Shown: piece by piece, positions 42,258-51,922 of the stretch
Layout: each line of letters begins with the position of its first letter
How positions within the stretch are numbered: position 1 is the first letter of the stretch
Source: Methylococcales bacterium
GTDB lineage: Bacteria; Pseudomonadota; Gammaproteobacteria; Methylococcales; Methylomonadaceae
DNA: 64,000 bases
Assembly (NCBI GenBank): GCA_026399015.1
Contig: JAPLRS010000034.1
Location: 1 to 64,000 of the forward strand
Reading direction: 5' to 3'
The notes under the pieces: model-generated
Told to the model about the DNA's origin: nothing
Seen by the model: only the letters and a program-made list of their open reading frames with translations
The model's database searches: none
Translations under genes and position numbers: made by a program

Positions 42258-43112
42258 CTAAGCAACTAAGGTCATAGAGGCTTTAAGCTTTTTCATCGCA
42301 TTTTGCTCTAACTGCCTAATTCTTTCTGCTGAAACATTATATTTCTCAGCTAATTCATGTAGGGTAGCTTTATCCTCCGCCAACCAACGGCTCGTTAAAA
42401 TATCAATACTTCGCGCATCAAGTTTTTCCATGGCTTCAGATAGTAAATCATGACCATGACCTTCCCAATCTGCATTTTCAAGTAACTCCGAGGGATCCGC
42501 ACCGTACTGTTGTAAATAACTTGCTGGATAAAAAGCACCCTCTTCGGAAGCATCATCTGTTGGCATATCAAAAGACATGTCATGACTACTTAAGCGCTTC
42601 TCCATTTCATAAACATCACTTAAATCAACATTTAAATCATCTGCTATTGCCATTGCTTCAGCATTTGATAACCAACCTAAATCTTGTTTTGATTTACGTA
42701 AATTAAAAAATAATTTACGTTGGGCCTTTGTTGTAGCTATCTTAACGATGCCCCAGTTCTTAATAACATATTCATGAATTTCGGCTTTAATCCAATGTAC
42801 AGCAAACGATACTAAACGCACACCCACATCTGGATCAAAGCGCTTAACCGCCTTCATTAAGCCTATATTACCTTCTTGAATAATATCCGGCATTGACAGA
42901 CCGTATCCACTATAACCTCTGGCAACATGTACCACAAAGCGTAAATTGGTCATTACCAATTCTCTAGCTGCATCCAAATCGCCTTGATCTCTGAATCTTA
43001 GCGTTAGTTCACGCTCTTCTTCAACCGTTAATCTGGGCATTTGTCTTACTAAATTAAGATAAGCATCAAATGTTCCAACTGACAAATTAACAGGTAATGC
43101 TAATGTGCTCAC
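42258..43112 (-). CDS. rpoH: heat-shock sigma factor RpoH (sigma-32)
   Basis: RpoH directs RNA polymerase to heat-shock promoters. From the GTG at 43112 the protein has 284 residues, the length of E. coli RpoH, and a good ribosome binding site (AGGAG, 8 bases away) supports this over the longer frame to 43154. Regions 1.2-2 (DLIQEG-like DIIQEGNIGLMKAVKRFD), the RpoH box QRKLFFNLRKSKQ and the region 4 helix-turn-helix (LHELAEKYNVSAERIRQLEQNAM) are seen. A CIRCE operator lies 36 bases upstream of the start, which points to HrcA repression. Confidence 0.97.
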   Translation of the reverse strand: MSTLALPVNLSVGTFDAYLNLVRQMPRLTVEEERELTLRFRDQGDLDAARELVMTNLRFVVHVARGYSGYGLSMPDIIQEGNIGLMKAVKRFDPDVGVRLVSFAVHWIKAEIHEYVIKNWGIVKIATTKAQRKLFFNLRKSKQDLGWLSNAEAMAIADDLNVDLSDVYEMEKRLSSHDMSFDMPTDDASEEGAFYPASYLQQYGADPSELLENADWEGHGHDLLSEAMEKLDARSIDILTSRWLAEDKATLHELAEKYNVSAERIRQLEQNAMKKLKASMTLVA

Positions 43113-43147
43113 TATCTTATCTCCTAATAAAAGAATTTTTTGCGATT

Positions 43148-43174
43148 CTAGCACTCTCTAACAAAGAGTGCTAA
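43148..43174. promoter_or_regulatory. CIRCE element (HrcA operator) upstream of rpoH
   Basis: CTAGCACTC-N9-GAGTGCTAA matches the CIRCE consensus TTAGCACTC-N9-GAGTGCTAA at 17 of 18 arm positions with the exact 9-base spacer. It lies between ftsX and rpoH, 36 bases before the rpoH start codon, where bound HrcA would block transcription or initiation. Confidence 0.88.
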
Positions 43175-43196: not shown

Positions 43197-44213
43197 TTAA
43201 GACTTAGCAACTCTAAGTTCAAAATATAAAACTACCCAAGCACCTAGAATACCCAAAATGGAAGATGCAGAAATCAAAAATAATGTTTCAGTAAAACTCA
43301 AAAACAACAGATGCATATCATTTTGAAAAAGACCTGATACCCTTTCTACAGATCCTCTTAAAATTAACATTAAGATTGTGACAATAAACCAAGCACTGAC
43401 TCCGGATATAAAACCTATCCAAAAGCCTGTATACAAAAAAGGCCTTCTAATAAACGCGTTAGTGGCGCCCACTAATTTAGAAATAACAACTTCAGATCGA
43501 CGACCATAAAACTCTAGACGCACTGTATTACCAATGACAAATAATACGGCTGCCGCTAATAAAATGTTTAATAACGATGCAAATAACTGCGCCACATCTA
43601 CAATAGCCTGCAAGCGCTCGACCCACTCCAAATCCAATTGAGCAAAATCCACCTCTGGTAATTGCTGAAAGCTTTTTAGCAATTCATCCAAACCTTGCTT
43701 ATCATTTAAAGTATTCTTAGGTAAAACCTCTATTACGATAGGCAGTGGATTCTTTTTTAGGGCGTTTATAGCTCCCCCAAAACCACTGTACTCCTTAAAA
43801 TCCGCTAACCCCTGCTCTTTACTTATCAATTTGATATTCTGCACACTTTCATTACCGCGAATATTTTCAAATAATTTTTTTGCATGAACATCGTTTACAT
43901 CATCTCTTAAAAACAATGAAATTTGATTGCTGGTTTCAAGATTACCCGTTAACTGCTGAATATTAACGACAACAATATAAAAACCACTGGCTAATGAAAT
44001 TGAAATCGCGAGAACTGCAATCGTCATTATTGAACTAAAGGGGGTGGCGATCATACGACTAAGACTTGAAAAAAACGCATGGACATGTAAATCCCTATAA
44101 GCTATTAACTTATCCTTAATACCACCACCAGCAATAGTAGTTTGTCTTTTTTCTTGCTTAATCGTCTTGATTGGAGGATCTTTTTTAATTCGATTCTTAT
44201 TAAGTCTTTTCAT
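43197..44213 (-). CDS. ftsX: cell division protein FtsX
   Basis: FtsX is the permease-like partner of FtsE that activates septal cell-wall hydrolases from the inner membrane. The 338-residue protein has a long basic cytoplasmic N terminus, a first membrane helix (about 62-85), a periplasmic loop with the conserved NQISLFLRDD and four-helix layout ending in the C-terminal FtsX domain (RLEFYGRRSEVVISKLVGATNAFIRRPF in part). Starts 3 bp after ftsE. Confidence 0.96.
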   Translation of the reverse strand: MKRLNKNRIKKDPPIKTIKQEKRQTTIAGGGIKDKLIAYRDLHVHAFFSSLSRMIATPFSSIMTIAVLAISISLASGFYIVVVNIQQLTGNLETSNQISLFLRDDVNDVHAKKLFENIRGNESVQNIKLISKEQGLADFKEYSGFGGAINALKKNPLPIVIEVLPKNTLNDKQGLDELLKSFQQLPEVDFAQLDLEWVERLQAIVDVAQLFASLLNILLAAAVLFVIGNTVRLEFYGRRSEVVISKLVGATNAFIRRPFLYTGFWIGFISGVSAWFIVTILMLILRGSVERVSGLFQNDMHLLFLSFTETLFLISASSILGILGAWVVLYFELRVAKS

Positions 44214-44216
44214 ACC

Positions 44217-44873
44217 TTAACTCTGCACCAACTGACCATGGTCCAATTTTAAAACCCGGTTATCTAATTGCGAAATTAAAGAAATATCATGAGTTGCAAT
44301 GAGTATAGTTACACCCACCTGTTGAAATTGACGAAACAAATGCATTATCTCTGCAGATAACTCGGGATCTAAATTACCTGTTGGTTCATCAGCAATAATA
44401 ATAGGTGGTTTATTAACAACAGCTCGAGCAATGCCAACGCGTTGTTGTTCCCCACCAGACAAAGCCAAGGGGTACTTCCTTTCTTTTCCGTGCAAACTAA
44501 CTTTTTCTAATGCTGCTCTAACACGTCTTGCAACTTCTTGGTGCCCATAACCAGCAATAATTAAGGGTAATGCCACATTATCAAATACTGTTCTGTCATG
44601 AAGCAATTTATAATCTTGATAGATGAACCCCATTTTCCGCCTTATATAAGGCAACTGACTTTCTTTTGCTGCATTTAAATCTTGACCATCAACAACGATT
44701 TGTCCACGGGAGCAACGTTCCATAGCAGCGATAAGCCGTAATAACGTACTTTTTCCAGCTCCCGAGTGTCCAGTGAGAAAAGCCATATCACCTTTCTCTA
44801 ACTGAAAACTAACGTTACGCAAAACATCGCCCGTTTCTTCATAACGCTTAGTTACATTTGCAAAACTAATCAT
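44217..44873 (-). CDS. ftsE: cell division ATP-binding protein FtsE
   Basis: A 218-residue ABC ATPase with Walker A GHSGAGKST, signature LSGGEQQRVGIARAVV, Walker B IIIADEPTGNLDPE and switch ATHD. The segment MGFIYQDYKLLHDRTVFDNVALPL is the FtsE hallmark. It starts 5 bp after the ctaA-ftsY fusion gene and joins ftsX, as in the conserved ftsY-ftsE-ftsX-rpoH order. Confidence 0.97.
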   Translation of the reverse strand: MISFANVTKRYEETGDVLRNVSFQLEKGDMAFLTGHSGAGKSTLLRLIAAMERCSRGQIVVDGQDLNAAKESQLPYIRRKMGFIYQDYKLLHDRTVFDNVALPLIIAGYGHQEVARRVRAALEKVSLHGKERKYPLALSGGEQQRVGIARAVVNKPPIIIADEPTGNLDPELSAEIMHLFRQFQQVGVTILIATHDISLISQLDNRVLKLDHGQLVQS

Positions 44874-44878
44874 AACTA

Positions 44879-46822
44879 CTATTCATTCACAAATAAGGCA
44901 TCAACAAATAATTCCGCATCAAAATCTTGCAGGTCATCAATCCCTTCACCTATACCAATAAACCTAATTGGTGTTCCTGTATGTTTGGCCAAAGCAAAAA
45001 TCACCCCACCCTTCGCAGTACCATCCAATTTTGTCAAAACTAACCCAGATAAAGAGACTGCTTCATTAAATAATTTTGCTTGTGAAAGGGCATTCTGACC
45101 CGTACCCGCATCTAAAACCAACAAAACCTCATGAGGGGCAGATGAATCTAATTTACCCATAATTCTCTTAATCTTCTTTAACTCTTCCATCAAGTTTGAT
45201 TTTGTATGCAATCTTCCAGCAGTATCGGCTATTAACACATCAACACCTTTGGCTTTAGCTGATTGTAATCCATCATATATAACTGAGGCAGAATCGGCAC
45301 CCGTATGCTGAGCAACAACAGGAATATTATTTCGCTCACCCCATACCTGCAATTGTTCTACTGCTGCCGCTCTAAATGTATCACCAGCAGCCAACATAAC
45401 AGTATGTCCTTGAGCTTGTAAGCGTTTAGCTAACTTACCAATAGTCGTTGTTTTACCTGCACCATTAACGCCGACTACTAATATTACAAATGGTTCATCT
45501 TGTTTGGGTATTTGTAAAGGCTCACTACAGGGTTTTAGTATTCTATAAAGCTCAGCCTTTAATGCTTTTGACAAAGCTTCACCATCTTTTAATTGATGAC
45601 GCTCCAAGTTATTACTTAAATGTCTAATTATTTCGTTAGTTGCATCGATACCGACATCAGCCATTAATAAATTAGCTTCTATTTCTTCAAGCAATTCATC
45701 GTTAATTGAGCTTTGACCTAATTGTAAACCAGATAAAACACCACTTAATCCCGAGCGAGTTCTATGTAATTGTGCTTTAAGCCTACTATATAAAGATTCC
45801 GGTAAAGGCTCTACATAATCTTCCTCTTGAATACTATCGGAAGATACAAAAACATCTTCAGTTAACTGTTCTTTCTGAACTAGATCTTTTGAGTGTATTT
45901 CACTGGTATCTAATTGACTATAACGACTATAAAAGCTGATACCTAAAAGAGGTAACATCAAGATAGCAGCAAACAAATAATGCACTGCAGTCATCCAAAC
46001 TGGCAATTCATATTTAATAGTTACTATTTCTAACCCTATTAATACAAATAAAAAAGCGCCAAGAAGATATCCGAATCTACTGACTGATTTTACTGACCCG
46101 ATTGCTGTAGCACTAAACATTACCAAACTCAGCAATAAGAATACCGCTATTGCTACAACCCTGTGCAACCAATTAACTGCTACTTGAGCATCATATGAAA
46201 TAATTCCGTTATAAGAATTTAATAGGCCTTTAAAGAAATCAAGTGCATTTAGATAATCTGCGACAGGTATCCATTGACCATTACATTGCGGAAAACCCAC
46301 ACAAGCAAGACCAGCATGATTTGCGCTTAACCAAGTACCCAAAAATATTTGTATGCCTAAAAGTAACATTGCTAACCGACTAGTAAAAATGAGTCGATTA
46401 TTTCGATTTTCTTTATCTAATACATAATGACTTTCAACTGTAGTCGCGCGTAAAAATAGGCCGTAAAGTAACCAAAAAGTGCATAAACCCAATAAAACAT
46501 GAAATGTAGTTACTATAGGAAAGCTCAGATAGAAGCCCCCCCAGTAACCCAGCGTAGCTTGAACGCCTACTAGAATGAAAACTAATGTGGAGGTAATAAC
46601 GAATGTTATTTTGTTATTTTTTTGCCACCATGAAAGTGACCACAACAAAAAAACTGAAAAACCAAAAGTGGCCGTTAAATAGTTATGAATTTGGACTTTT
46701 AATAACTGGTGCAAATTCTGCTCAATTAAACTAGGGTAGATATCTCCTATTCGAATAACTGAACCCAACAAAATAATGATTAAAGCTAAAACTACGCTGA
46801 ACAGTGTTATTTTTCTGAACAT
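44879..46822 (-). CDS. ctaA-ftsY: heme A synthase-FtsY (SRP receptor) fusion protein
   Basis: One uninterrupted 647-residue frame. Residues 1-300 are a CtaA/COX15-type heme A synthase with about eight helices and all four heme-ligand histidines in family positions (H46, H108, H220, H281), plus LACVGFPQCNGQW in the second half. Residues 301-345 form an acidic linker. Residues about 345-647 are the FtsY NG GTPase: GVNGAGKTT (451-459), DTFRAAAVEQL, DTAGR (533-537), TKLDGTAKGG (597-606). No ATG occurs between Met290 and Met387, so a separate FtsY start would need a rare codon. The normal FtsY membrane-targeting region is replaced by covalent anchoring. The first periplasmic loop of CtaA is missing, with its cysteines and the glutamate three residues before the first histidine (here Val43). 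Confidence 0.92.
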   Translation of the reverse strand: MFRKITLFSVVLALIIILLGSVIRIGDIYPSLIEQNLHQLLKVQIHNYLTATFGFSVFLLWSLSWWQKNNKITFVITSTLVFILVGVQATLGYWGGFYLSFPIVTTFHVLLGLCTFWLLYGLFLRATTVESHYVLDKENRNNRLIFTSRLAMLLLGIQIFLGTWLSANHAGLACVGFPQCNGQWIPVADYLNALDFFKGLLNSYNGIISYDAQVAVNWLHRVVAIAVFLLLSLVMFSATAIGSVKSVSRFGYLLGAFLFVLIGLEIVTIKYELPVWMTAVHYLFAAILMLPLLGISFYSRYSQLDTSEIHSKDLVQKEQLTEDVFVSSDSIQEEDYVEPLPESLYSRLKAQLHRTRSGLSGVLSGLQLGQSSINDELLEEIEANLLMADVGIDATNEIIRHLSNNLERHQLKDGEALSKALKAELYRILKPCSEPLQIPKQDEPFVILVVGVNGAGKTTTIGKLAKRLQAQGHTVMLAAGDTFRAAAVEQLQVWGERNNIPVVAQHTGADSASVIYDGLQSAKAKGVDVLIADTAGRLHTKSNLMEELKKIKRIMGKLDSSAPHEVLLVLDAGTGQNALSQAKLFNEAVSLSGLVLTKLDGTAKGGVIFALAKHTGTPIRFIGIGEGIDDLQDFDAELFVDALFVNE

Positions 46823-46832
46823 TCTTTATTCT

Positions 46833-47570
46833 CTACCCAATTTGTGAAATTCTAAGTAAATGCATAAGGTCATCTTTTACTTTATAAGTATTAAATCCAG
46901 ATTCATATTGCATCATTAAATTACCTAAAGGATCTATTAAAAACAACATCCCATCTGATATACCACCTTTACTAACCGCTGCTATTTTATTAATAAACTC
47001 AGCACCGACCTTAACTCGAATTAAATCAGAGTTAAGTGCAACTTCTTTATTTTCATTTTTTATAAGCTTATCTATCAGAGATGTATCAATTTTATTGTCT
47101 TCATGTAATAGACTGGAATACAAGGTCTGACTCTCTTTATCATCAGGTCGATTTAAGCGCCATAACAAGGTATCTTTTAACCACCACTGATTCGATATTT
47201 CTTCAGATGGATTTTTAATAATAATTGCAACTCTTCGAGTGCGTGGTAATTCTTTATTTAACATCAAGCGTAATTGTTTTGTCTTGAGTAATGCTTCGAG
47301 ACAAATTTCATTACACCCCTCATTTGGTATTACATTGACAATTAACCAATGTCCTCGTAATTCTTTAATATTATTACTAGAAAAGTCATCAAATCCCAAA
47401 ATATCTTCTGGAGGAATAGTAATTGGCGGAACAACTAATTGCCCGCGGTTTGTTGTACCCTTAACCAAAGATGGATTCTCTTTTAATCCCCAAGCAATTA
47501 AGAAAGGAATAATAGTCATACTAAATATCGCTATTATTAAAATCTGATTTTTCTTCTGTTGTTTATTCAT
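46833..47570 (-). CDS. thioredoxin-fold cytochrome oxidase assembly protein
   Basis: A 245-residue protein with one N-terminal membrane helix (about 10-27) and a periplasmic domain of thioredoxin/SCO-like fold. The candidate redox or copper site is CNEICLEAL (CxxxC spacing as in SCO1), preceded by WLIVNVIP and followed by LFLIDPLGNLMMQY, a pattern typical of the small hypothetical protein that sits between SURF1 and ctaA in gammaproteobacterial cox operons. It overlaps SURF1 by 8 bases and lies 10 bp before ctaA-ftsY. Likely helps build the CuA site or matures the oxidase, by context. Confidence 0.8.
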   Translation of the reverse strand: MNKQQKKNQILIIAIFSMTIIPFLIAWGLKENPSLVKGTTNRGQLVVPPITIPPEDILGFDDFSSNNIKELRGHWLIVNVIPNEGCNEICLEALLKTKQLRLMLNKELPRTRRVAIIIKNPSEEISNQWWLKDTLLWRLNRPDDKESQTLYSSLLHEDNKIDTSLIDKLIKNENKEVALNSDLIRVKVGAEFINKIAAVSKGGISDGMLFLIDPLGNLMMQYESGFNTYKVKDDLMHLLRISQIG

Positions 47571-48276
47571 CTCTATTTTTCTTACTATACCAATAAAACA
47601 ACGCGGTTAACGCGATTGCCAATGCAAACCATTGTAAGGCGTAAGCCTTGTGTTGATCGGGTGACATAATTTTATTTGTTTGCCACTCGCGCTTAAATCC
47701 TTCAGGACTCTCTTTATCTAACTCAACTTGAAAAGAGAATAATTTATAACCCACCTTTTCCGCTAATATTTTCGTATCAACTATTTGCAATACAGATGGC
47801 CATCCTTCGCCTGGAGTTTCAGACCCTGCCAACTTAATACCTACACTTGGAAAACTATTAATTCGCCCAGTAATTTGTACTGGCAAAACACTCATTTTCA
47901 ACATAGGTAAGTCTTCTCTATGCTGATTTATGGGCAACCAACCTCTATTTACCAAAACTGCCCTAGATTGATCAGCCAAAATAAAAGGAGTCAAAACCAA
48001 ATATCCCACTTTACCAGCACTGATTTGATTATCAATTAGAAACTGATGATCTTCATCATAATGTCCAACGACTTTTACTTTTTTATATTTAATTTGCTCA
48101 ATATTATCTTCAGTTGTACCGGTTAAATTTAAAATATCAGGCGATGCCAATACTGTTTCTTTGTGGTCCATATAACTTTGCTTCTCAACAGCACGCCTCA
48201 ATTGCCATAAACCTAAGTTAATTAACAATAGCAACACGCACACATAAATGAGTATTCCGATTTTTTTTGCCTTCAT
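47563..48276 (-). CDS. SURF1 family cytochrome oxidase assembly protein
   Basis: SURF1 helps insert heme A into subunit I. The 237-residue protein has the two-helix layout (about 5-22 and 210-230) with a periplasmic domain between and the family motifs NLGLWQLRRAVEKQ, GHYDEDHQFLIDNQ, VLVNRGWLP and HKAYALQWFALA. First gene of the assembly group that runs on to ctaA-ftsY, ftsE and ftsX; its promoter lies in the 105-bp gap shared with the divergent DUF2909 gene. Confidence 0.94.
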   Translation of the reverse strand: MKAKKIGILIYVCVLLLLINLGLWQLRRAVEKQSYMDHKETVLASPDILNLTGTTEDNIEQIKYKKVKVVGHYDEDHQFLIDNQISAGKVGYLVLTPFILADQSRAVLVNRGWLPINQHREDLPMLKMSVLPVQITGRINSFPSVGIKLAGSETPGEGWPSVLQIVDTKILAEKVGYKLFSFQVELDKESPEGFKREWQTNKIMSPDQHKAYALQWFALAIALTALFYWYSKKNRDE

Positions 48277-48381
48277 TTATAAACAACCTGCTTCATAAGC
48301 ATACTTTTATTCTTGATCTAGTTGGCATAAGTGCATTAATAAACGAAAATAGAGTACACATTAATCTTTATAAACTTTACC

Positions 48382-48642
48382 ATGATTATACAAAGCATCG
48401 TCATAATTACCTTTTTTCTAATAATAATTAGCCTTGGTTCCGCTCTATTTCATCTAATTAATCATAAATCTGAAGAACAATCTAAAAAAACAGTAAAATC
48501 ACTGACTTTTCGTATTGCTCTTTCATTAATACTATTTATCTTTATTTTTATTGCCTTTAGCACCGGTCTTATCAGACCCCATGGACTGGGTGCAAATATA
48601 ATGCGTCAACATTTAACTCAAGTTGAAACTACAACCCCATAA
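48382..48642 (+). CDS. DUF2909 twin transmembrane protein
   Basis: An 86-residue protein with two membrane helices (about 4-26 and 47-65) and the conserved RTGL-like end TGLIRPHGLG. This family is regularly found inside cox operons, on the opposite strand between coxC and SURF1, exactly as here. Its function is unknown; a link with oxidase assembly is inferred from position. Confidence 0.85.
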   Translation: MIIQSIVIITFFLIIISLGSALFHLINHKSEEQSKKTVKSLTFRIALSLILFIFIFIAFSTGLIRPHGLGANIMRQHLTQVETTTP

Positions 48643-48651
48643 AACTTACTG

Positions 48652-48691
48652 ACAAAAAAAAAGCGCCGCCTGATAAAGGCCGCGCTTTTTA
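48652..48691. terminator. bidirectional terminator between DUF2909 gene and coxC
   Basis: The stem AAAGCGCCGCC pairs imperfectly with GGCCGCGCTTT around a short loop. A run of A on the left and T on the right allows it to end the DUF2909 transcript and the coxB-coxC operon. Confidence 0.85.
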
Positions 48692-48707
48692 AATCCTTAA
48701 TGATTAT

Positions 48708-49559
48708 TTACATTAAATAGACAAATATAAATAAACCTAACCAAACCACGTCAACAAAATGCCAGTACCAAGCCGCGGCCTCAAATGCAAAATGATTCTC
48801 TGGTGAAAAATGACCTTTTGTACTACGGAACAATACAACACTTAAGATAATTGCCCCAACACAAACGTGAAAACCGTGAAAGCCAGTTAACATAAAGAAT
48901 GTTGAACCGTAAACCCCAGAACCTAATGTTAAGCCCATCTCTGAATAAGCTTCATGATATTCAAGTGCTTGAAAGCATACAAATAAAAATCCTAATGCTA
49001 CAGTGGCAAGCAAACCTTTAATCAACTGATCACGATTTTTAGCTAAAAGCCCATGATGCGCCCAAGTACATGTCACGCCACTAGTTAATAATAATAAAGT
49101 ATTAACGAAAGGTAATCCCCATGCACCCATAGGTTCAAATTCACCACCCACTTTACCAGGACCATTTGTTGGCCATACCGCGTCAAAACTCGGCCATAAT
49201 AATTCTTTAGTAGCACCCTCACCTAACCATGGCACTGATAAATTACGGGTGTACCACAAGGTACCAAAGAAAACCGCGAAGAATACTATTTCAGAAAAAA
49301 TGAACCACATCATGCCATGACGATAAGAAATTCCTACCTCATGATTGTACATACCAGATTCACTTTCTTTTGCTTGTAGAGTAAACCAACCTACTAACAT
49401 AGCAACAAAAACTAATAAACCAGCTATCATTAAAGGCTGTCCAATTGAAGAGCCATTTAAGAAGTTAGCAAATCCAGCGAGCATAATCATCAACCCAACC
49501 GTACCAATAATAGGCCAAGTCGCTTTATGCGGTATATAATAGGTACTGTTTGTAGACAT
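48708..49559 (-). CDS. coxC: cytochrome c oxidase subunit III
   Basis: A 283-residue inner membrane subunit with seven helices, as in bacterial aa3 oxidases. Family landmarks are RHGMMWFIFSEIVFF, GVTCTWAHHGLL, FFMLTGFHGFHVCVG and the terminal FEAAAWYWHFVDVVWLGLF. Subunit III stabilises proton uptake and structure. It follows ctaG by 13 bp. Confidence 0.97.
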   Translation of the reverse strand: MSTNSTYYIPHKATWPIIGTVGLMIMLAGFANFLNGSSIGQPLMIAGLLVFVAMLVGWFTLQAKESESGMYNHEVGISYRHGMMWFIFSEIVFFAVFFGTLWYTRNLSVPWLGEGATKELLWPSFDAVWPTNGPGKVGGEFEPMGAWGLPFVNTLLLLTSGVTCTWAHHGLLAKNRDQLIKGLLATVALGFLFVCFQALEYHEAYSEMGLTLGSGVYGSTFFMLTGFHGFHVCVGAIILSVVLFRSTKGHFSPENHFAFEAAAWYWHFVDVVWLGLFIFVYLM

Positions 49560-49572
49560 AAGATTCCCCTTT

Positions 49573-50124
49573 TTAATTTTTTACTGATCTTTCAGTATTA
49601 TCGAAAAATGTGTATGACAGTGTTATCGTTTTATATTGTTCAGGCATTTCTGGATTTATAACAAAACGCATTGGCATTATCTTCACTTCATTAGCCTTAA
49701 AATTTTGTTCTGTAAAACAGAAACATTCAATTTTTTCAAAATATTGACTTATAAGCGCAGGGGAAAAACTAGCTATTGCCCTAGCTTTTATTTCTTTATT
49801 TGTTTTATTTTTAGCGTAAAAGTTTACCGTATAGTATTCGCCTGGATGTACTTTTAAACTTTTTGTCTCTGCATGAAAGTCCATGGGTGTTGATTCATTT
49901 AATATTGTCATGAACTCAACAGTCACCTCTCTATTTACATCAACCTTATAAGCAATTTCTGGTGCTTTTTTTATGTCATCAGGCCTGTCACGCTGAATCC
50001 ATTTCCATTCACATAAAACGTCATAAATTGGAACTAGTGCATATCCAAAACCAAACATACCTACTGCAACTAATAGCAAGGTCCTAGCAAGCTTAATATT
50101 TTTATTTGTTACAGAATCTTTCAT
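49573..50124 (-). CDS. ctaG: cytochrome c oxidase copper chaperone CtaG (Cox11)
   Basis: CtaG delivers copper to the CuB site of subunit I. The 183-residue protein has one N-terminal helix (about 12-30) and a periplasmic immunoglobulin-like domain with the copper-binding motif IECFCFTEQ (CxC) and MPMRFVINPEMP, both Cox11 hallmarks. Its ATG overlaps the stop of the 31-residue gene before it (TAATG). Confidence 0.96.
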   Translation of the reverse strand: MKDSVTNKNIKLARTLLLVAVGMFGFGYALVPIYDVLCEWKWIQRDRPDDIKKAPEIAYKVDVNREVTVEFMTILNESTPMDFHAETKSLKVHPGEYYTVNFYAKNKTNKEIKARAIASFSPALISQYFEKIECFCFTEQNFKANEVKIMPMRFVINPEMPEQYKTITLSYTFFDNTERSVKN

Positions 50125-50219
50125 TAAGAAACTGCTTGCGCAACAGCGAATAAATAGAAAATTAAAGTAATAGCACCCAAAATTACAGCAGTTAAAATAT
50201 TCTTATTTTTTGTTGTCAT
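50124..50219 (-). CDS. 31-residue cytochrome oxidase small assembly protein
   Basis: Between coxA and ctaG lies a 31-codon gene. It starts MTTKNKNILTAVILG and ends FAVAQAVS, with one membrane helix (about residues 8-26). Its stop overlaps the ctaG start codon (TAATG), which strongly supports real translation. Small single-helix proteins at this spot are known in beta- and gammaproteobacterial cox operons as small assembly proteins. It was found by reading the gap directly because it is very short. Confidence 0.75.
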   Translation of the reverse strand: MTTKNKNILTAVILGAITLIFYLFAVAQAVS

Positions 50220-50281
50220 AGTTACATTGTAAGTTACCTTGCGTAGTTATTTTCATAACTACGCAATTGTATGGTTATGTC

Positions 50282-51922
50282 TTAATGCGAATCTAAAACA
50301 TGCTCTGTAGGAACAATTGTTGGCGGTGTAGTCCAAGTATGATACGGAGTTGGAGAAGGCAAAGTCCACTCTAAACCATGCTTAGCAGCGTCTTCCCAAA
50401 CCTCATCAGATACTTTCTCACCAGTACCACCTCTAATTGTATCAATCACTATGTATAAGAATAATAACTGACTTGCACCAAATATAAATCCACCTACACT
50501 TGAAATCATATTCCAGTCAGCAAATTGCACTGCATAATCTGGAATTCTTCTTGGCATACCAGCCAAACCTAAAAAGTGTTGCGGGAAAAATAAAATATTT
50601 ACAGATATAACTGACAACCAAAAATGTAATTGGCCAATCTTTTCGTTATACATGTGGCCAGTCCATTTAGGTAACCAAAAATACCCAGCAGCCATCAAAA
50701 TAAACACCGAAGCAGGAACTAGTGTGTAATGGAAATGTGCAACAATAAAGTAGGTATCGTGATATTGGAAATCAGATGGCGCAATAGACATCATTAAACC
50801 AGTAAAACCACCAAGCGTGAATAAAACCACAAATGCTATTGAAAATAACATGGGGGTTTCAAATGTCATAGCACCTTTCCACATAGTAGCAGTCCAGTTA
50901 AAGACTTTTACACCTGTTGGTACGGCAATAATCATCGTTGCATACATAAAGTACAACTCACCCGCTATAGGCATACCCACAGTAAACATGTGATGAGCCC
51001 AAACAATAAACGATAAAAATGCAATTGAAGCAGTCGCCCAAACCATTGACGCATAACCGAACAAAGGTTTACGAGCAAATACAGGAATAATTGTTGATGC
51101 AACACCAAAAGTTGGCAGAATCATGATGTAAACTTCTGGATGCCCAAAGAACCAGAAGATATGTTCATACAATACAGGGTCACCACCGCCAGCAGCATTA
51201 AAGAAACTAGTGTGGAAAAATTTATCAGTCAACAACATAGTTACTGCACCAGCAAATACCGGCATTACAGCAATCAATAAGAATGCAGTAATCAACCAAG
51301 TCCAAACAAATAATGGCATATCCATCATTTTCATGGCTGGCGCACGCATATTAAAAATAGTTGCGATTATATTAATCGCTCCCATGATTGATGAAATACC
51401 TAACAAATGCACTGAAAAAATTGCAAATGGTAAAGCTTTACCAACCGTAATTGGTTGCAATACTAGAGGTGGATATAAAGTCCAGCCACCATTAGGCGCA
51501 CCACCTTCCATAAATAAAGTACTCGCCAGTAACAACACACCCGCAACTAACATCCAAAAACTCATATTATTCATACGAGGTAAGGCCATATCAGTCGCGC
51601 CAATCATTAAAGGGATTTGCCAGTTAGCCAAACCAACAAAAGCTGGCATAACCGCACCAAATACCATGACTAATGCATGCATTGTAGTCATTGAGTTAAA
51701 GAATGCTGGATCTACAAATTGCAAACCTGGTTCAAACAATTCAGCACGAATAACCATCGCCATTGTTCCGCCAATAAAAAACATGGCTAAAGCAAACAAT
51801 AAGTACATCGTACCAATGTCTTTATGATTTGTAGTAATAACCCATCTCAATAGACCTTTTTCAGGACCATGATCGTGGTGATCATCAGCATGGTGATCGT
51901 GTTCATCTACAGCAGCAGACAT
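50282..51922 (-). CDS. coxA: cytochrome c oxidase subunit I
   Basis: The catalytic subunit, 546 residues and about twelve helices, holding heme a and the heme a3-CuB site. Landmarks are FWFFGHPEVYIMILP (CuB histidine and cross-linked tyrosine), WAHHMFTVG, the paired histidines in HFHYTLVP and an early MTTMHALVMVF. The GHPEVY form with tyrosine fits the A-type heme-copper family. The N terminus is rich in histidine and aspartate (EHDHHADDHHDHG), which may bind metal. Follows coxB by 55 bp. Confidence 0.98.
   Translation of the reverse strand: MSAAVDEHDHHADDHHDHGPEKGLLRWVITTNHKDIGTMYLLFALAMFFIGGTMAMVIRAELFEPGLQFVDPAFFNSMTTMHALVMVFGAVMPAFVGLANWQIPLMIGATDMALPRMNNMSFWMLVAGVLLLASTLFMEGGAPNGGWTLYPPLVLQPITVGKALPFAIFSVHLLGISSIMGAINIIATIFNMRAPAMKMMDMPLFVWTWLITAFLLIAVMPVFAGAVTMLLTDKFFHTSFFNAAGGGDPVLYEHIFWFFGHPEVYIMILPTFGVASTIIPVFARKPLFGYASMVWATASIAFLSFIVWAHHMFTVGMPIAGELYFMYATMIIAVPTGVKVFNWTATMWKGAMTFETPMLFSIAFVVLFTLGGFTGLMMSIAPSDFQYHDTYFIVAHFHYTLVPASVFILMAAGYFWLPKWTGHMYNEKIGQLHFWLSVISVNILFFPQHFLGLAGMPRRIPDYAVQFADWNMISSVGGFIFGASQLLFLYIVIDTIRGGTGEKVSDEVWEDAAKHGLEWTLPSPTPYHTWTTPPTIVPTEHVLDSH

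Follow-up and report, generated by a model that had tools for sequence, protein, structure and literature searches.

A heme A synthase domain fused to the SRP receptor FtsY across Methylococcales, probably retained as a membrane anchor

In protein targeting, the SRP receptor FtsY is a nearly universal component. Its need for a soluble phase or for a dedicated anchor has been argued from engineered constructs, one of which, reportedly made by Zelazny in 1997, joined the FtsY NG domain to an unrelated membrane polypeptide. As described in PMC2780400, lipid binding by E. coli FtsY involves two cooperating domains, and derivatives of this receptor that are tethered by a transmembrane segment work in vivo (Zelazny 1997, as cited there); FtsY from Gram-positive bacteria and archaea is described with a single true transmembrane helix, which fixes the receptor to the membrane, and in the eukaryotic SRP receptor alpha-beta the GTPase is permanently tethered by an integral membrane partner. 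Heme A synthase (CtaA/Cox15; structures 6a2j and 8aw5) is built of two four-helix bundles. In the accounts of the B. subtilis enzyme given in PMC8239418, PMC12808453, and PMC7327177, the C-terminal bundle binds heme b via H216 and H278, the N-terminal bundle contributes E57, H60, and H123 to the substrate site, and the loop-1 cysteines matter for activity whereas the loop-3 cysteines do not. The C-bundle heme ligands and loop-3 cysteines are presented as the part dispensable for B. subtilis activity (PMC8239418), and Table 1 of the same paper includes fusions of CtaA to CtaB. Among the open-access papers listed by our searches, no title or abstract describes a CtaA-FtsY protein; the original prediction knew of none either.

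Here we describe such a protein from the window, by which we mean the whole 64,000-nucleotide stretch of a Methylococcales genome that was analyzed. It is encoded on the minus strand by a stop-free ORF of 647 codons with an ATG start (Table 1). Like E. coli FtsY, it has a complete NG GTPase with its G motifs and an amphipathic helix ahead of NG, but an eight-helix membrane domain stands in place of the N-terminal lipid-binding domain. The proposed fixation to the membrane recalls that of Gram-positive and archaeal FtsY, although here the anchor is polytopic and enzyme-derived, and that of the eukaryotic receptor, although the tether here is a covalent one, with no relation to SR-beta. The NG domain sits on a foreign polytopic anchor, as in the laboratory construct of Zelazny, but this fusion arose in nature and extends across an order. 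With heme A synthase it shares the two four-helix bundles, the heme-b histidines of the C bundle, and the loop-3 Cys pair; unlike that enzyme, the protein in the window lacks the N-bundle Glu and the loop-1 Cys pair and carries FtsY at its C-terminus.

Table 1. Features of the ctaA-ftsY locus in the window and the stand-alone CtaA gene of the same genome
Feature	Coordinates	Strand	Evidence or remark
rpoH-like sigma factor gene	42258..43154	-	Sigma70_r2, Sigma70_r4
ftsX gene	43197..44213	-	FtsX_ECD match
FtsE-like ABC ATPase gene	44217..44873	-	5 bases downstream of fusion
ctaA-ftsY fusion gene, 647 aa	44879..46822	-	Pfam, TIGR00064; common to 50/61 genomes of the order
FtsY NG GTPase domain, residues 358-647	44882..45751	-	Pfam, TIGR00064, structure match
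Amphipathic membrane-targeting-helix region, start of FtsY NG, residues 343-362	45737..45796	-	Residue conservation
Acidic, variable, predicted disordered linker, residues 301-342	45797..45922	-	pLDDT <50 at 310-341
CtaA/COX15-like eight-helix membrane domain, residues 1-300	45923..46822	-	PF02628 45-290; AF2; 6a2j TM 0.71
Upstream gene	46833..47570	-	Ends 10 bases before fusion start; without Pfam match at 1e-8
Cytochrome oxidase cluster: SURF1, COX3, CtaG/Cox11, COX1	47563..51922	-	Pfam; order kept in relatives
Stand-alone CtaA, Asn-for-H60 class	G000 contig 36, 68363-69340 (L184:5941-6918)	minus	PF02628

The fusion lies on the same strand as, and between, the oxidase genes and the ftsE-ftsX-sigma genes, which puts the SRP receptor in line with the cytochrome oxidase cluster. 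The sigma factor gene is presumably rpoH, a name that we give it from its position, and ctaB is located elsewhere in this genome (C37). A single 647-residue frame holding both proteins was the central claim of the original prediction, and the domain matches bear it out: Pfam finds COX15-CtaA (E 1e-29; 104 bits against a cut-off of 29.9, which places this part in the heme A synthase family), SRP54_N at 358-425, and SRP54 at 444-644, and the TIGR00064 ftsY equivalog scores 369.3 bits against a cut-off of 260.7, which with the NG architecture identifies FtsY. The predicted eight-helix domain appears in the AlphaFold2 model of residues 1-310 (pLDDT 84.9, pTM 0.84) as eight long helices, with an N bundle at about 1-155 and a C bundle at about 156-300 and with H46, H108, H220, and H281 in helices 2, 4, 6, and 8; its best PDB match is B. 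subtilis heme A synthase (16% identity). In the full-length model (pLDDT 72, pTM 0.48), the NG part matches E. coli FtsY 7o9h with a TM of 0.95 by target length. A PDB search with the fused sequence gave E. coli FtsY at 391 bits and no CtaA chain among the best 60 of the 76 matches listed. If the N-terminus is inside, the inner loops of the CtaA part hold 10 Lys and Arg residues and the outer loops 2, which argues for FtsY in the cytoplasm.

The fusion is no peculiarity of one genome but spans an order, which the original prediction had no means of knowing. The two-domain architecture, which that prediction proposed to look for in related genomes, occurs as a single ORF in 50 of 61 genomes, in one of which (G004) the match begins only at residue 156. 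The gene is interrupted by contig ends in four more (G005, G023, G024, and G028), and the remaining seven, all sampled members of families f7 and f8, have unfused ctaA and ftsY. Three carriers are single-contig chromosomes (G019, G039, and G054). The carriers with names, drawn from the best 80 of 561 loci, are methanotrophs: Methylobacter sp. KS41, a Methylomagnum ishizawai MAG, an uncultured Methylococcaceae MAG, Methyloglobulus sp., and Methyloprofundus sp. PF02461, which we take as a marker gene for methane oxidation, is present in 38 of 43 genomes, including the unfused ones of f7 (5/7) and f8 (2/2), and is absent from the fused drafts G037, G040, and G045; the fusion thus does not simply track it. 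In a wider draw, 291 of 301 genomes of the order match at 1e-60 (the match in G301 has an internal TGA), and the gene of the draft assembly G112 looks frameshifted. An FtsY-level match was absent in 10 of the 301, second look included, which we tentatively put down to gaps, although one of them (G241) is rated 100% complete. Outside the order, the fusion was found in none of 135 matched genomes of the class, all of which match only from residue 296 on: the search at 1e-70 covered 151 genomes, with 14 unmatched and so outside the count, and the two of 137 matches that span both domains are from this order, as are all three matches among 274 genomes at E 1e-132. Two short fragments that match the NG part occur among the rows listed (G016:C84, 49%; G021:C118, 46%). 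Elsewhere in Gammaproteobacteria, long FtsY frames with no CtaA match, in G389 contig 40 (993 aa), G391 contig 5 (1,047 aa), and G314 contig 31 (652 aa), would represent other long N-terminal extensions or fusions.

For the comparison of residues and trees we used 91 fused rows, that is, distinct ORFs no shorter than 560 aa, taken from 183 loci (94 before duplicates and the copy of the window's own locus were removed), with contig-cut copies left out and 29 rows from the window's genus. In a 123-row tree built from the FtsY part, whose bootstrap is not fully settled, the 91 fused rows form one clade with support 93/96, and the f8 row and then f7 lie next to it, which gives the fusion an apparent single origin. 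The gene order points the same way. In f7 and f8 it is ftsY>ftsE>ftsX>rpoH> <ctaB<ctaA<cox genes (L144, L145, and L148, with SURF1, COX3, and COX1 after ctaA), and the fused clade has cox genes>ctaA-ftsY>ftsE>ftsX>rpoH> <ctaB (the f6 genomes L141 and L143). A single inversion, with one breakpoint between ctaA and ctaB and the other immediately ahead of ftsY, fits both, converting the unfused order into the fused one. FtsY of f7 and f8 begins with MFGFGKKK..., and the inversion would have swapped this short N-terminus for eight transmembrane helices, leaving the amphipathic helix at the NG start in place. The CtaA tree has many weak or long branches, so the argument for the origin rests on the FtsY tree; in the CtaA tree the fused rows need two changes, one of them being the unfused third CtaA of G105. 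This further CtaA (L200), from genus g45, groups with the fused type, and a similar unfused match, with no FtsY-level match, is found on contig 4 of G124.

The CtaA part of the fusion has changed most where the enzyme has its substrate site. Residues were mapped by motif and by alignment to the unfused CtaA of f7, f8, and Burkholderiales rather than directly to B. subtilis, and nine positions, loop-1 Cys pair included, are kept in all eight of these unfused outgroup sequences. In the window, two of the three substrate-side residues are kept (H46 and H108), Val stands at the E57 equivalent (V43), and the absence of Cys from residues 25-38 means that the loop-1 pair of type 1 enzymes is missing, whereas the heme-b histidines H220 and H281 and the loop-3 cysteines C174 and C180 are present. 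The four histidines that the original prediction reported as conserved are thus all in place, but they do not imply an intact enzyme, because neither the Glu at the E57 position nor the loop-1 Cys pair remains. Across the 91 fused rows, the Glu is kept in 19, the H60 equivalent in 65, the H123 equivalent in 56, both N-bundle histidines in 51 (window included), and the loop-1 cysteines in 46 and 44 (both in 44); in the window's genus, neither the Glu nor the loop-1 pair is found in any of 29 rows. The loop-3 cysteines, by comparison, are kept in 90 and 90 rows, the heme-b histidines also in 90 and 90, and the four together in 89; both C-bundle histidines are missing from row L161 and the loop-3 cysteines from L172, one of three rows (with L176 and L177) whose CtaA parts are of doubtful alignment. 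All nine residues survive in 13 rows. On the FtsY tree, the minimum number of changes is 15 for the Glu, 17 for H60, and 16 for H123 versus 1 for each C-side residue. Here and in most sampled relatives, the fused CtaA looks catalytically worn out. Table 1 of PMC8239418 lists natural CtaA variants with E57N or with E57K and H123N together, as well as type 2/Cox15 enzymes that lack Cys pairs, so such losses are not proof of inactivity. That the enzyme joined to the receptor still works in respiratory assembly is wrong or unproven, given V43, the lost loop-1 pair, and the repeated loss of the N-bundle histidines in relatives. Some fused N-terminal halves are more divergent in genus g36, where that of G189 (L172, L207) is not recognized as COX15-CtaA and that of G231 (L169) barely so (E 3.4e-9); 7-8 membrane segments are still visible in the hydropathy of both. 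In genus g32 (L130, L131, L158, and L159), the fused frames are only 565-571 aa long with a shortened N bundle, and L158 has 6 hydropathy segments.

Most of the fused genomes tested have another CtaA. Two or more PF02628 matches occur in 59 of 67 genomes and in 19 of 30 of a further set, a few of them being fragments (G008, G009, and G063). The window's genome, for which the original prediction suggested a search for a second ctaA and counted only a second ftsY as fatal, does have a second ctaA: a gene of 339 codons on C36 that matches PF02628 across the whole model (E 1.5e-55), compared with E 1.5e-30 over model positions 80-319 for the fused copy in the same search. It adjoins an ORF with a GCV_T domain, an AcrB-type transporter, and an HflK-like gene. 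Nineteen of 20 stand-alone copies form one class with the loop-1 Cys pair, the Glu, Asn at H60, and no loop-3 pair, which resembles type 1.3 as given in PMC8239418, Table 1. The stand-alone CtaA matches the Aquifex and Bacillus heme A synthases in a PDB search, and we infer that heme A is made by this protein; with Asn at H60 in 19 of 20 copies and no NCBIfam match of the class at 1e-10, its activity is likewise deduced. Five genomes that are at least 90% complete, from only two lineages, have no CtaA other than the fused one: G179, G196, G213, and G258 of genus g34, and G040 of family f5. The N-bundle motifs persist in every one of them (all nine positions were compared in three, and G213 and G258 were covered by a motif search excluding the last histidine). 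The fused copy is also alone in G007, G011, and G050, which are 65-85% complete, and this we attribute to gaps; the rows of G007 and G011 are degenerate. Ten fused rows from genomes with a stand-alone CtaA still keep all nine residues.

Substitution patterns set the parts of the protein apart. In 15 pairs (Nei-Gojobori), dN/dS ranged from 0.07 to 0.47 in the N half of CtaA and from 0.04 to 0.31 in the C half; FtsY gave 0-0.13 and the linker 0.16-1.04, with one linker pair undefined, and in most pairs FtsY was lowest, followed by the C half and then the N half. With values below 0.5, the CtaA halves belong to a constrained protein, looser than FtsY and not dead weight; even the N half is under purifying selection and not decaying freely. 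Values below 0.5 for both halves in 15 of 15 pairs, together with the ORF shared by 50 of 61 genomes, argue that the fusion is not due to chance. Between the window and G006, identity is 91% for FtsY and 92% for the stand-alone CtaA versus 53% and 61% for the fused N and C halves. The FtsY part is the complete NG GTPase that had been predicted: GVNGAGKTT, DTAGR, and TKLD (G1, G3, and G4) and DTFRAAA are all present, and the G-motif residues are invariant over 92 rows, the window counted twice, except V452 (86/92) and A455 (61/92). In the same rows, the helix motif RLKxxLxxTRxGL that precedes NG keeps R347, L348, and L352 in all 92 and T355, R356, and G358 in 90; guided by alignment, we take this region to be the putative equivalent of the E. 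coli FtsY membrane-targeting helix. The linker between the two halves is 17-56 residues long in the 91 fused rows (304-342 equivalents) and, as predicted, acidic (median net charge -5).

We consider it likely that the SRP receptor of this clade became, in a single event, a polytopic protein held permanently in the membrane by a domesticated heme A synthase. The fused CtaA probably now serves as the receptor's anchor, and mainly so, probably holding one heme b for stability. The GTPase would stand on the cytoplasmic face on its acidic flexible linker and catch SRP-ribosome complexes at the membrane with no cytosolic phase, and the retained amphipathic helix would perform the usual lipid contact. 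Such an anchored receptor fits the in vivo function of TM-tethered E. coli FtsY as related in PMC2780400. The protein could be bifunctional in this organism too, with CtaA making heme A, FtsY targeting, and their joining coupling oxidase assembly to subunit insertion. The four histidines kept in the window, the cox cluster immediately upstream, the five genomes at least 90% complete with no other CtaA, and the purifying selection on the N half speak for this; we nevertheless regard it as unlikely, since the Glu and the loop-1 pair are missing throughout the window's own genus, a second CtaA is present, and the fused copy evolves far faster than the stand-alone one in the comparison with G006. 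For genus g34 and G040, which have no stand-alone CtaA, the fused protein is probably still enzyme and receptor, and this is likely the ancestral state. The fusion most likely began in that form and would have become a heme-b-bearing anchor wherever a stand-alone CtaA took over.

Two other readings concern how the two halves came to share a frame or how they part. An assembly or annotation artefact, for which only the 47-contig draft state of the window's genome (2.70 Mb, rated 86.5% complete) would speak, has next to no probability; a chimera or slip is excluded by the ORF shared among independent assemblies, single-contig ones included, and by the matching change in gene order. It is quite improbable, too, that the fusion is a precursor from which linker proteolysis or internal initiation frees an ordinary FtsY, the CtaA part being baggage. 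The linker is disordered and variable, and E. coli FtsY is said to have a cleavable N-terminal anchor (Weiche 2008). Internal initiation gains little from the sequence: the stretch between codons 289 and 387 holds no in-frame ATG, as the original prediction had stated for Met290 to Met387, and TTG occurs at 288 and 377. ATG, GTG, or TTG with an SD-like motif is found in 15 of 91 linkers, close to the 13, 6, 34, and 33 of 91 in control stretches, and ATG with such a motif in only 1 of 91, so that no conserved internal start emerged and a separate FtsY start is indeed unlikely. A mere leader would, moreover, need neither a frame kept in 50 of 61 genomes nor purifying selection on both halves. 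A second ftsY was also looked for in the window's genome, at its completeness of 86.5%, and Ffh was the only other FtsY-type match. The most constrained features of the anchor are the heme ligands and the loop-3 disulfide cysteines, which sets apart from a plain anchor a further idea, to which we give a small chance: that the heme-b C bundle is kept for more than anchoring, FtsY being an obligate oligomer or the SRP receptor being heme- or redox-gated, with insertion following heme or oxygen supply. The core of the Aquifex CtaA trimer is described as formed by C bundles (PMC7327177).

If the anchored-receptor reading is right, the fusion would be a natural anchoring experiment on FtsY, done once and kept in many genera of bacteria that, as methanotrophs, crowd copper monooxygenase and oxidase into their membranes. 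The gene order still records the inversion behind it, and sister families survive in the unfused state. It may also offer a dated case of an enzyme turning into a membrane anchor, losing its active site stepwise once a second copy exists while the heme-b half stays. In practice, an annotation of the fused gene in a methanotroph should not be read as a sign of heme A synthesis, nor should the gene be split as an error.
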